Assembly (NCBI RefSeq): GCF_003581425.1
Contig: NZ_QXTG01000001.1
Location: 1,302,001-1,366,000, forward strand
Source: Amnibacterium setariae
Lineage (GTDB): Bacteria > Actinomycetota > Actinomycetes > Actinomycetales > Microbacteriaceae
Reading direction: 5' to 3'
Length of the DNA: 64,000 nt
This document shows positions 38,361-42,375 of this stretch, piece after piece. The translations under genes and the position numbers were made by a program. Position 1 is the stretch's first letter; every line of letters starts with the position of its first letter. The notes below the pieces were generated by a model. It made no database searches and was not told where the DNA came from. It worked only from the letters and a program-made list of their open reading frames with translations.

Positions 38361-39710
38361 TCAGACCGCGCGCTCGCCGAAGCCGAGCGGCTCACGCGTG
38401 AAGCGATACGTCGCCCAGCTCAGGAGGCGGACGGAGCCGTCCTCGCGGCGTCGCACGACGAGCCGCTCGCCGCGCTCGCGGCCGGCGACCGTGCGGAAGG
38501 CGTCGGGCCCGTCGGGCTCGAACACCGAGGGCGGCGTGCTCGGGTCGGCGCCGCCGACGACCGCCTCGAGGCGACCCGCACGGATCCGGAGCTCGAACGC
38601 GGAGCCCTCCGAGAACCACACGCCGACGAGCGGCAGCAGCTCGGGCGCAGGCGTCGGCCCCGGCGTCCACGGCGCCGGCAGCGGCGCGTCGTGGAGCGCG
38701 ACCTCCTCCCCGAGCCGGATCGCGGTGCCCTCCGGCGTCTTCGCGACGCTGTTGTTCATGAGCACCACCCCGGTCAGGCCGCTCTCGCGGTCGGAGTACG
38801 CGCCGGTGATGCCGCCGGGCGCGCCGCCGGTGTGGCCGAACCAGGTGCGGCCCTCCTTGCGCACGAGGGCGAAGCCGAGCCCCTGCGCGCCGTTGAACCG
38901 GTCGTCGCGGAGGACCTGCGGCTCGAGCATCTCCGCCACGGTGTCGTGCCGCAGCACCGCGTCGTCCGGGTCGAGCAGGAACGCGTGCCACCGGACGAGG
39001 TCCCCGACCGTGCTGGAGAGCCCGCCCGCGGCCGCGAGGATGCCGGTGAAGAGCACCGGCTCCTCCACCGGCACGTCCGAGTACGGCGGCACGTAGTAGA
39101 GGCCGGCCTTCGGCGCCCGCGCCTGCAGGGTCGTGTCGCGGAGCCCCACCGGGTCCAGGAGGCGGGCCTGGAGGCTCTCCGCCCACGACCGGCCGTCCTT
39201 CGCCGCGACGACCTGACCGAGCGCGATGTAGCCGAGGTTGCTGTAGTGCCAGGAGCGGTGCGGCTCGAGCACCCGCTCGGTCGCGTTCCAGTCCTCGACG
39301 AACCGGTCCGTCGGCGGCACCTCGAGGGTGTCCCAGAACTCGGCGGCGACCGGCTCCCGCTGCATCCCGCTCGAGTGCGCGAGCAGCTGCCGGATCGTCA
39401 CGCCGGGATGGGCGCTGCCGGGGAGGTGCTCGTCGACCGGGTCGTCGAGCCGCAGGCGGCCCTCGTCGCGCAGCTGGAGCACCATCACGGCGGTGAACGT
39501 CTTCGTGTTGGAGGCGATTGCGAACTGCGTGTCGACGCCCAGCGGCACGCCCGGATCGGCGAGGTCCGCCGTGCCGACGCCGGCGGACCAGAGCAGGTCG
39601 CCGCGGTGCGCGACGCCCGCGGCCAGGGCGGGCGTTCGGCTGTCCCGCTGCGCCTCCACCGCGATCCGGTCCAGAGCGCGGCGGGTGGCGTCGAGGAGGA
39701 CGTGGGGCAT
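38361..39710 (-). CDS. Serine hydrolase, class C beta-lactamase/DD-peptidase family
   Basis: This 449-residue protein has an N-terminal beta-lactamase-like domain (about 10-340) with SxxK as SNTK (Ser67/Lys70), the YxN motif as YSN in HYSNLGYIALG, and HTGG in place of KTG. A C-terminal beta-rich domain (about 350-449, LVGVWFSEGSAFELRIRAG) is like those of EstB and D-aminopeptidase relatives. No signal peptide is evident, so it is probably cytosolic. The likely reaction is esterase or peptidase rather than antibiotic hydrolysis. It diverges from the repeat-peptide gene. Confidence 0.9.
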   Translation of the reverse strand: MPHVLLDATRRALDRIAVEAQRDSRTPALAAGVAHRGDLLWSAGVGTADLADPGVPLGVDTQFAIASNTKTFTAVMVLQLRDEGRLRLDDPVDEHLPGSAHPGVTIRQLLAHSSGMQREPVAAEFWDTLEVPPTDRFVEDWNATERVLEPHRSWHYSNLGYIALGQVVAAKDGRSWAESLQARLLDPVGLRDTTLQARAPKAGLYYVPPYSDVPVEEPVLFTGILAAAGGLSSTVGDLVRWHAFLLDPDDAVLRHDTVAEMLEPQVLRDDRFNGAQGLGFALVRKEGRTWFGHTGGAPGGITGAYSDRESGLTGVVLMNNSVAKTPEGTAIRLGEEVALHDAPLPAPWTPGPTPAPELLPLVGVWFSEGSAFELRIRAGRLEAVVGGADPSTPPSVFEPDGPDAFRTVAGRERGERLVVRRREDGSVRLLSWATYRFTREPLGFGERAV

Positions 39711-39837
39711 GGGCCGATGCTACGAGCGGCGCGCCGCGCGCTCGCCGGTCGGCCGCATCGGGGCGGCTGCCGTTCGTTCGAGCGCGGGGCGTAGCATCCG
39801 CGCGACCGCGCTTCACTCGACCTCCGGAGGACCGCCA

Positions 39838-40095
39838 ATGGCCATCGACGACGACGACATCACGAGCAGCACCCCGAGCAGCGGCGAGGGCCCTGCCGAC
39901 GGCGGCGCGAACCCGAACGGGCACGACGGCGGCGCCGACGGCCCGGCCGACGCGGGCGAGGGCCCGGCGGACGGCGGGGCGAACCCGAACGGGCACGACG
40001 GCGGTGCGGACGGCTCGGCCGACGCGGGCGAGGGCCCGGCGGACGGCGGGGCGAACCCGAACGGGCACGACGGCGGCGCCGACGGCAGCGCCTGA
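39838..40095 (+). CDS. Triple-repeat Asp/Gly/Asn/His-rich peptide, candidate modified-peptide precursor
   Basis: This 85-residue peptide has a short acidic head (MAIDDDDITSSTPSS) followed by three near-identical 24-residue repeats at 16-39, 40-63 and 64-85. Each contains GGANPNGHDGGADG, so His recurs at 29, 53 and 77 and Asn at 25/27, 49/51 and 73/75. It has no Cys, aromatic, Lys or Arg residues, no signal peptide and no membrane segment. GGAGG lies eight bases before the ATG, a strong ribosome site. The oxygenase gene starts 11 bases after its stop. A leader plus repeated identical core next to a tailoring-type enzyme is the standard layout of multi-core RiPP precursors. That role is inference; a low-complexity acidic protein of other function is the alternative. 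Confidence 0.75.
   Translation: MAIDDDDITSSTPSSGEGPADGGANPNGHDGGADGPADAGEGPADGGANPNGHDGGADGSADAGEGPADGGANPNGHDGGADGSA
39883..40092 (+). repeat. 72-bp in-frame tandem repeat (three units)
   Basis: Units at 39883-39954, 39955-40026 and 40027-40092 encode the 24-residue peptide repeats, the last one truncated by two codons. Nucleotide identity between units is very high; the differences seen are a Pro/Ser codon change and a few silent ones (for example GGCGCC versus GGTGCG). Recent duplication or homogenisation is likely. Confidence 0.9.
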
Positions 40096-40106
40096 GACCT
40101 GCCGAC

Positions 40107-41363
40107 GTGCACGCTCCTCACGGGACCGTGACGACTGAGGGCGAGCCGAGCGATCGGCCCGCCCTCAGCCGCTGCATCGCCGTTCCCGCCGACCGCTTCG
40201 CCGCCGAGATCTGGGGCCGGCGCGCGCTCCTCAGCCCCGCGGAGGACCTGTCCCGCGGCTTCGACGACCTGCTGACCGCCGACGCCGTCGACGAGCTGCT
40301 CGCGGATCGGGCGCTGCGGACGCCGTTCATCCGCATGGCCAAGGAGGGCGTCGTCCTGCCGCCGTCCGCCTACACGGCTCCGGGCGGCTTCGGCGCCGAG
40401 GTCGCCGACCAGGTGAGCACCGACCGCGTGCTCGCCGAGTTCGCTGCCGGGGCCACGATCGTGCTGCAGGGGCTGCACCGCACCTGGAAGCCGCTGCGCG
40501 ACTTCAGCCGCCAGCTGATCCTGGACCTCGGTCACCCCGTCCAGATCAACGCGTACATCACGCCCGCGCAGTCGCGCGGGTTCGATCCGCACTACGACGT
40601 GCACGACGTCTTCGTGCTGCAGATCAGCGGCGAGAAGCGCTGGGTCGTGCACGAGCCCGTGCGCGAGCACCCCTTCGCGGACGAGCCGTGGTCCCAGCGC
40701 GCGGCCGCGGTCGCCGCCCGCGCCGCCGAGACGCCGGCGATCGAGACGGTCCTCCGGCCGGGCGACGCGCTCTACCTGCCGAGCGGGTGGATCCACTCCG
40801 CCGTCGCGCAGGGCGGGACGACCGTGCACATCACCGTCGGGATGCCGGCGCTGACGCTCGCGGACGTCGGCAGGGACCTCATGGAGACCGCGCTGCGCAG
40901 CGACCCACTGCGCGAGCCGCTGCCCGTCGGGGTCGACGTGCGCGACCCCGCGCAGCTCGCCGACGCGATCCGCCGCGCCGCGGACGCGCTGGTCGCGGCG
41001 CTCGCCGAGCCCGCCGATCCCGGTCGCGCCGCCGAGGTGCTGGGCCGCCGCCTGACCCGGATGACGCGGCCGGAGCCCGTGCGACCGCTCGCGACCGTCG
41101 ACGCCCTGGCCGCGCTCCATCCGGACGCGACCGTGCGCTGGCGGCACGGGCTGCGCACCGAGGTCGAGTCGACCGCGGCGGAGGTCGCGCTGCGCCTGCC
41201 CGACCGCGTGCTGCACCTGCCGCCGCAGACGGCCGCCGCCATCGACGCCCTCCGCTCCGGCCGTGCGGCCGAGGCGGGCGCGCTGGCGGAGCTCGACGAG
41301 CACGACTCGCTCGTCGTCGCCCGACGGCTGCTCCGTGAGGGCGTGCTGGTCGTCGACGCGTGA
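40107..41363 (+). CDS. JmjC/ROX-type cupin oxygenase (Cupin_4)
   Basis: The 418-residue protein matches the bacterial ribosomal-oxygenase (ROX, YcfD/RoxA-like) family of Fe(II)/2-oxoglutarate dioxygenases. The iron triad is visible as His162-x-Asp164 in DPHYDVHD and His230 in PSGWIHSAV; Lys177 in GEKRW is a candidate 2-oxoglutarate contact. The JmjC core spans about 30-245, and a helical/winged-helix-like C-terminal region (about 250-418) follows. Known relatives hydroxylate Arg in ribosomal protein L16 (YcfD) or His in Rpl27a and Rpl8 (MINA53, NO66). Here the adjacent gene encodes a repeat peptide with recurring His and Asn, a plausible substrate. It starts at GTG 11 bases after that gene, and the [2Fe-2S] protein gene follows seven bases later. 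Confidence 0.88.
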   Translation: MHAPHGTVTTEGEPSDRPALSRCIAVPADRFAAEIWGRRALLSPAEDLSRGFDDLLTADAVDELLADRALRTPFIRMAKEGVVLPPSAYTAPGGFGAEVADQVSTDRVLAEFAAGATIVLQGLHRTWKPLRDFSRQLILDLGHPVQINAYITPAQSRGFDPHYDVHDVFVLQISGEKRWVVHEPVREHPFADEPWSQRAAAVAARAAETPAIETVLRPGDALYLPSGWIHSAVAQGGTTVHITVGMPALTLADVGRDLMETALRSDPLREPLPVGVDVRDPAQLADAIRRAADALVAALAEPADPGRAAEVLGRRLTRMTRPEPVRPLATVDALAALHPDATVRWRHGLRTEVESTAAEVALRLPDRVLHLPPQTAAAIDALRSGRAAEAGALAELDEHDSLVVARRLLREGVLVVDA

Positions 41364-41370
41364 GCCCGCG

Positions 41371-42375
41371 ATGAGCGGCATCCGCTCCACGGTGCCGCGG
41401 GGGAGCCTCAGCCCGCACCGCGACGGCGGTCCGGCGTGCAGCGCCGCCTCCCGCCTCCTCGACGAGTCCCTCGTCGCGACGGCTGCGCCCGGCACCCGCT
41501 GGCTGCTCGTCGAGGTCGCCGGCGCGTGGGGCTGGAACGCGTTCACCGAGTCGCCCGTGCTGGACCCCGAGGTCGGCAGGGCGCTCGCGGCGCGCACCCA
41601 CCGCGCGGGCGTCCGCCTCCTCGCCATCCGCCGCCCCGGCCGCGCGCGCGGCCCGGTGCGGTGGCGCTGGGCGGTCGTCGACAGCCGGGAGGGGGCGGAG
41701 GGCGTCCGGTGGGGCGAGGCCGCCGCTGCGCGGGACCTGCTCGACGTGCCGCTCGACGGGTCCACCGGCGAGCCCTCGGACGAGCCGATCCTCGCCGTCT
41801 GCGCGCAGGGCCGTCACGACGAGTGCTGCGCCGTGCGCGGGCGCCCGGTCGCAGCCCGCCTCGCCGCGCGCTTCCCCGAGGCGACCTGGGAGTGCTCGCA
41901 CATCGGCGGCGACCGCTTCGCGGCCACGATGATCCTGTTCCCGCACGCGCTCACGTACGGCCGCATCGATGACGGCGACCCGGTGCACGTCGTGACCGAG
42001 TACCGCGCGGGCCGGATCGCGCCCGAGGGGTTCCGCGGTCGCGCCAGCGTCCCGCGGATCGTGCAGGCGGCGCAGTCGGCCGCGATGGCCGCCACCGGGA
42101 ACCGCGCGCTCGACGCGCACGCGCCGCTCGCGCTGGACGAGCGCCCGGGGGCCTGGCTCGTCGACCTCGCCGGCGAGCCGCCGACGCGCGTGCTGGTGGA
42201 GGGCGTGCAGGAGGGGCCGCTGTTCACGACCTGCCTCGCGACCGTGCCCGTGACCGTCGCGGGCTTCCGGGCCGCGGTCGAGCCCGGCGGCGACGCCCCG
42301 ATCCGGCAGCCGCCGGATCCCGCGCACCGTCCGCACGACTCCGGCCTCCGCTCGACCGGCGGCGCGCCGGACTGA
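41371..42375 (+). CDS. Sucrase/ferredoxin-like [2Fe-2S] protein
   Basis: The 334-residue protein belongs to the Suc_Fer-like (thioredoxin-fold ferredoxin) family. Cluster ligands are suggested by CAQGRHDECCAVRG near residue 147 and ECSHIGGDRFA near 180, as in thioredoxin-like ferredoxins. The N-terminal half has a related fold with CSAASRLLDESL. Family members in actinobacteria lack a proven role. Its immediate link to the cupin oxygenase suggests an electron-transfer or partner role in the same pathway, although 2-oxoglutarate oxygenases do not strictly need a reductase. The Pro/Arg-rich tail (about 310-334) is disordered. Confidence 0.85.
   Translation: MSGIRSTVPRGSLSPHRDGGPACSAASRLLDESLVATAAPGTRWLLVEVAGAWGWNAFTESPVLDPEVGRALAARTHRAGVRLLAIRRPGRARGPVRWRWAVVDSREGAEGVRWGEAAAARDLLDVPLDGSTGEPSDEPILAVCAQGRHDECCAVRGRPVAARLAARFPEATWECSHIGGDRFAATMILFPHALTYGRIDDGDPVHVVTEYRAGRIAPEGFRGRASVPRIVQAAQSAAMAATGNRALDAHAPLALDERPGAWLVDLAGEPPTRVLVEGVQEGPLFTTCLATVPVTVAGFRAAVEPGGDAPIRQPPDPAHRPHDSGLRSTGGAPD

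Follow-up and report, generated by a model that had tools for sequence, protein, structure and literature searches.

A conserved actinobacterial cassette pairing a multi-repeat peptide with a NO66-like JmjC oxygenase as a candidate RiPP-like hydroxylation system

The question raised by this locus of Amnibacterium setariae is why a small Asp/Gly-rich repeat peptide should be encoded immediately in front of a JmjC-type oxygenase and a probable [2Fe-2S] protein (Table 1; positions are those of the window, the whole 64,000-nucleotide stretch of DNA that was analyzed). The answer considered probable here is that the cassette consists of a RiPP-like multi-core precursor that is hydroxylated by its own JmjC enzyme, with Asp as the likeliest target.

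Table 1. Features of the peptide-oxygenase cassette in the window
Feature	Positions	Strand	Basis
Shine-Dalgarno-like GGAGG of the peptide gene	39826..39830	+	Read in the sequence, 7 nt before the ATG
85-aa multi-repeat precursor peptide gene (ATG 39838, stop 40093-40095)	39838..40095	+	Translation, linkage upstream of homologues, purifying selection
Leader-like N-terminal segment MAIDDDDITSSTPSSG with conserved [IL]xDDDIxT motif	39838..39885	+	Precursor alignment; kept in divergent members
Repeat 1, EGPADGGANPNGHDGGADGPADAG	39886..39957	+	72-nt tandem repeat
Repeat 2, EGPADGGANPNGHDGGADGSADAG	39958..40029	+	72-nt tandem repeat
Repeat 3 (shorter), EGPADGGANPNGHDGGADGSA	40030..40092	+	72-nt tandem repeat
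NO66-like JmjC (PF08007) oxygenase; H162, D164, H230; probable 2-oxoglutarate ligand K177	40107..41363	+	Pfam, invariant residues, fold
C-terminal winged-helix-like domain, candidate leader binder	41103..41360	+	Model, ROX full-length match, leader-motif correlation
Suc_Fer-like (PF06999) protein, probable [2Fe-2S], accessory	41371..42375	+	Pfam, invariant residues, linkage

The peptide gene, with the strong ribosome site and the three repeats described in an earlier note on this DNA, was confirmed. After the leader-like segment come two repeats of 24 residues and a third of 21, and Tandem Repeats Finder gives a period of 72 nt (24 amino acids), 2.8 copies and a 93% match over 39883-40086. The family scans yielded no model for the peptide in Pfam or NCBIfam. 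Comparison between the named loci gives an overall pN/pS of 0.18, which falls to 0.14 when only pairs with a pS of 0.05-0.4 are taken, and the differences between repeats within the gene are mostly silent (pN 0.039, pS 0.447), indicating that the protein sequence is what selection keeps. The conserved reading frame, the ribosome site and these pN/pS values identify the peptide as the product of a genuine conserved gene. A 650-codon open reading frame lies opposite the peptide and oxygenase genes (39813-41765, minus strand); long antisense frames often occur in G+C-rich DNA, and this one is probably an artifact. The minus strand at 38361-39710 encodes a divergent beta-lactamase-fold protein (PF00144) with a DUF7586 domain, which is not a conserved neighbor.

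The oxygenase gene starts 11 nt after the peptide gene with a GTG codon, a start that is plausible, if not certain, with similarity to homologues beginning at residues 3-20. The protein matches JmjC_2 (PF08007) with an E-value of 1.2e-27 and 96 bits, and the iron triad of a complete JmjC oxygenase, His162, Asp164 and His230, proved to be invariant, together with Lys177, in 59 aligned sequences. Lys177 lies 13 residues past the triad Asp, which we take to be the 2-oxoglutarate-binding position of FIH and NO66. The AlphaFold model (pLDDT 90) aligns with NO66 over 380 residues (Z 28.9), in the full-length ROX architecture, and its other fold matches are MINA53 (Z 26.8), YcfD and YxbC (about 19) and FIH (14); NO66, which is about 24% identical, ranked first by sequence profiles too. 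The enzyme has both the HxD...H triad and the JmjC fold of the JmjC 2-oxoglutarate oxygenases, and the description of it as JmjC/ROX-type holds for the hydroxylase fold but not for a bacterial ROX of the YcfD type, the resemblance being to NO66 and MINA53 instead.

At E <= 0.001, 55 of 400 genomes of the same family match the oxygenase profile, mostly as full-length homologues; of the genomes taken across the phylum and across the class, it picks out 64 of 396 and 131 of 394, respectively. The phages searched gave no oxygenase match, and the relatives on plasmids are all distant, with an identity not exceeding about 34%. From a named genome collection, 150 oxygenase loci were matched and 80 kept, among them loci of Microbacteriaceae, Mycobacterium/Mycolicibacterium, Rhodococcus, Gordonia, Dietzia, Williamsia and Cellulomonas, and the named actinobacterial homologues are 49-65% identical. 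The peptide is encoded directly upstream in all 79 of the named loci with upstream sequence (one peptide is partly masked by N, and the remaining locus, cut at a contig end, was not counted). A strict pattern applied to 111 loci finds mostly three repeats, sometimes two and once four, the four-repeat locus (L074) having a fifth, slightly deviating unit as well. The earlier note had proposed that homologous loci be searched for an upstream repeat peptide, and this recurrent co-occurrence with two to four repeats bears it out; oxygenases without a nearby peptide, which it had named as refuting evidence, did not appear among the 79. Approached from the peptide side, exact GHDGGADG-coding DNA with at least two matches is present in 13 of 396 phylum-wide genomes, in all 13 of which the oxygenase gene adjoins the matches, and three further genomes have a single match each. 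Nor were relatives encountered that keep the oxygenase and have lost the peptide: in six other genomes of the genus, the oxygenase, the peptide motif (sought with a longer DNA pattern, a short one being too loose) and the Suc_Fer protein are all absent together. With cleaner gene calls, the recurring neighbors are only the peptide, oxygenase and Suc_Fer genes, others being lineage-specific; no protease or transporter, and no MNIO, arginase or radical SAM enzyme, is conserved among the neighboring genes of these loci. The results support the view that the cassette is a true conserved unit, with a repeat number that varies as a multi-core precursor predicts. In locus L212 (genome G1040), the genome search places an in-frame TAG in the oxygenase homologue, while the peptide and Suc_Fer genes look intact.

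The third gene begins 7 nt after the oxygenase gene, and its product matches PF06999 with an E-value of 3.7e-15 and 56.9 bits, versus a curated cut-off of 34.9. Cys23, Cys144, Cys152, Cys153 and His177 are invariant, and the protein likely carries a [2Fe-2S] cluster. A Foldseek search with its model (pLDDT 86) gave nothing with E < 0.001, and no solved relative was found; the second His of Apd1 presumably corresponds in position to Asp181. As a third member of the system this gene is usual but not universal. A homologue follows the oxygenase gene at 76 of 80 loci; Suc_Fer proteins are also found apart from the cassette, and entire lineages have the peptide and oxygenase with no adjoining Suc_Fer gene. 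It is best read as a frequent yet dispensable accessory, and the peptide-oxygenase pair thus forms the heart of the system.

The N-terminal motif of the precursor, [IL]xDDD[IM]xT, stays as the cores vary. Of 48 members with a C-domain like that in the window, 42 have it, versus 2 of 22 with a diverged one (Fisher p 2.6e-10, at a C-domain score cut-off of 35 that was picked after the scores were seen), and the motif score correlates with the C-domain score (rho 0.67) as opposed to that of the catalytic part (0.05). It should be recognized that on the tree this link comes down to a single large clade plus a small pair, and because it traces mainly to that clade the statistic is kept as suggestive only; it suggests that the C-terminal winged-helix domain may bind the motif. 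At the sequence level, no similarity of this domain to the PqqD profile was detected (hhalign probability 1%, E 0.055, 12 columns), and comparison with PDB sequences gave nothing significant.

Reading of the DNA around 100 divergent oxygenase matches indicates how far the cores can change. Wherever upstream sequence is available, an acidic peptide is encoded immediately before each clear full-length member (N-domain score above about 200). The cores include EGPADGGxxGxPGxHDGGADGG, (ADGG)n, (DADGTDGDA)n and (VDGDAADA)n; more distant oxygenases are preceded by an Asp-rich peptide that keeps an LxDDDIxT-type N terminus and has quite different repeats. L142 and L200 combine a good catalytic domain with an acidic, non-repetitive upstream peptide ending in ...EDQxxGxGPTxEPGA and have no Suc_Fer gene; their function may have changed. 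In L206, L214, L216, L217 and L220-L225, a conserved candidate precursor of 35-40 residues, MDPIEVEVEDLAEVTSRDITAGGDSDGTDSSSDFI and its variants, is encoded about 90-200 bases before the PF08007 gene, again with no Suc_Fer gene, and probably represents another JmjC-linked RiPP-like family. On plasmid pSCL4 of Streptomyces clavuligerus, a 48-residue peptide, MDDKKTSLEPDEIEVIPPVSTPDFVIADNDPSDPPIAIADPDPFDPVI, is encoded directly upstream of a PF08007 gene (L266:5757-5903) that is followed by genes for an S9 peptidase and an ABC transporter, and on plasmid pPg_03 of Pseudanabaena galeata (L265) a LanM lanthipeptide synthetase gene is located near a PF08007 gene. Short peptides near the enzyme in L170-L172 end in RSDGND in two cases and RSDMNDS in one, and the PF08007 gene of L165 is preceded by an open reading frame with what we take to be a TfuA-like look.

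The residue that would be modified can be approached through what the family retains. The most divergent set comprises 31 distinct peptides with an Asp content of 28%; His is missing from 23 of them and Asn from 21, but every one has at least 5 Asp. In the middle set, 7 of 39 distinct precursors are also without His. Distant PF08007 enzymes have unrelated short upstream open reading frames with DxDx[ST]D in 16 of 33 loci versus 0 of 268 control frames, a count that is more a description of the pattern than a test of it, since the motif was spotted prior to counting. Because His and Asn are often lost and Asp never is, and because of the DxDx[ST]D frames, Asp emerges as the shared target candidate; where His, Asn or Asp had been proposed, only Asp is common to the family. 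The best reading of these comparisons is that Asp is a likelier target than His, and the balance tilts toward Asp as the main hydroxylation site. Against this reading, NO66 and MINA53, the closest characterized enzymes and nearest folds, are His hydroxylases (PMC4543633), and 220 of 227 repeats in the clade of the window have a His in front of DGGADG. These two facts favor a version of the original proposal with His as the main target, in which the His of every GHDGG motif would be the residue that the NO66-like enzyme hydroxylates, the Asp being only structural. That version appears unlikely, given that the enzymes paired with precursors devoid of His are nonetheless homologous and that the last repeat has Ala in place of this His in all five Dietzia peptides, but specificity could differ between clades, and His may yet be the target in the window.

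Two further explanations dispense with modification of the repeats altogether. The acidity and variability of the cores could be explained by metal binding alone, and no processing genes are conserved, so the peptide might be an unmodified metal-binding or chaperone partner (for example in iron delivery or buffering) of an enzyme whose substrate is another protein. Repeated cores, a separate conserved N-terminal motif and an always adjoining JmjC gene suit a substrate better, however, JmjC hydroxylases that act on RiPP precursors are known, and there is no IdeR iron box upstream of the cassette, where the best matches are no better than shuffled sequence; this explanation is accordingly considered quite improbable. 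The ROX-like fold and domain order, together with the fact that this is the sole PF08007 gene of the genome, would also be consistent with an enzyme that modifies a ribosomal protein, the peptide being incidental or a regulatory translational leader. The linkage in every homologue with upstream sequence, the joint absence within the genus, the selection at the protein level, the independent turnover of repeats and the finding of no Rfam element in the region make this hardly credible. Scans of the region for sigma-70 promoters and terminators found nothing.

The multi-core substrate reading is thus preferred on the basis of the linkage (79 of 79 loci and 13 of 13 motif genomes), the joint absence, the selection and the conservation of only three genes. 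Cores that vary freely while the Asp content and leader motif stay also favor it, as do the full-length NO66 fold with its invariant His162, Asp164, Lys177 and His230, the acceptance of Asn, Asp and His by FIH and the hydroxylation of Orn by JmjC enzymes in biphenomycin-type RiPPs. In the proposed mechanism, a multi-core precursor, which from its sequence would comprise a short acidic N-terminal segment with [IL]xDDDIxT and then Asp/Gly-rich repeats, is hydroxylated in its repeats by the NO66-like enzyme with Fe(II), O2 and 2-oxoglutarate, a reaction suggested by family, conserved residues and linkage. Within the DGGADG part, the side chains of Asp would be the likeliest sites, and the neighboring His may be a further one. 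The winged-helix C-domain probably holds the N-terminal segment, the Suc_Fer-like protein probably acts as an electron donor or maintains the iron in its reduced state, and the hydroxylated acidic peptide may serve as a metal ligand. Confidence is high that the repeats are modified by the neighboring enzyme, whereas metal binding by the product is a doubtful guess. Dedicated proteases and exporters are common in RiPP clusters and are not strictly required; as neither a protease nor a transporter is conserved with the cassette, "RiPP-like" marks the limit of the label.

The cassette, which is found in many environmental actinobacteria, has apparently not been described before. In the open-access literature, the repeat motifs gave one match only, an unrelated recombinant antigen; subscription papers and preprints lie outside that scope, and a prior description there is possible. 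The cassette would add a widespread RiPP-like family, extending from Microbacteriaceae to deeper actinobacterial lineages and named by no Pfam or NCBIfam model, and would provide bacterial relatives of NO66 and MINA53 with a clear substrate candidate. It also makes the hydroxylation of a peptide at multiple sites simple to test, with two genes only. Because repeat number and composition vary naturally, substrate rules should be readable from genomes. A wider and distinctly tentative proposal is that there is a phylum-wide class of ribosomal poly-hydroxyaspartate peptides, made by NO66-like JmjC enzymes acting on freely evolving Asp repeats and serving as metal ligands; if it is true, human NO66 and MINA53 are cousins of bacterial peptide-tailoring enzymes.

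The oxygenase shares with NO66 (which acts on a His of RPL8), MINA53 (a His of RPL27A) and YcfD (an Arg of L16) the iron triad and, over its full length, the order of JmjC, dimerization and winged-helix domains, but it differs from all three in being genetically tied to a repeat peptide and not to a ribosomal protein; YcfD, although bacterial, is more distant in fold than NO66. FIH, which hydroxylates HIF and ankyrin repeats and accepts Asn, Asp and His (PMC4543633), is likewise a JmjC hydroxylase with repeated motifs as substrate, here a candidate one, but the similarity (Z 14) covers only the catalytic part, and the FIH substrates are folded ankyrin repeats as opposed to a short precursor peptide. 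The accessory protein resembles Apd1 and Aim32 in being of the PF06999 type with invariant Cys and His; in Apd1, a thioredoxin-like domain binds the [2Fe-2S] cluster through two Cys and two His (PMC11126956).

Among RiPP systems, JmjC/cupin hydroxylases of the biphenomycin type (PbsQ and BipG) hydroxylate Orn of a ribosomal precursor (PMC12257519, PMC12707348) and thus provide a precedent for pairing a JmjC-type enzyme with such a precursor. Their clusters also contain an MNIO, an arginase, a radical SAM enzyme, a protease and a transporter, whereas the present cassette has three genes only, and their Orn is located in a short single core in contrast to the Asp-rich multi-repeat core found here. 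Bacterial PF08007 homologues of RRE-bearing proteins were remarked in 2025 to appear in RiPP-like contexts (PMC12710340). These share with the oxygenase the Pfam family, a C-terminal domain and short peptides nearby, but their C-domain is RRE-like, whereas no sequence relation to PqqD was detected for the oxygenase; and while no precursor, repeat or system was described in that work, a precursor family, its distribution and its partner are given here.
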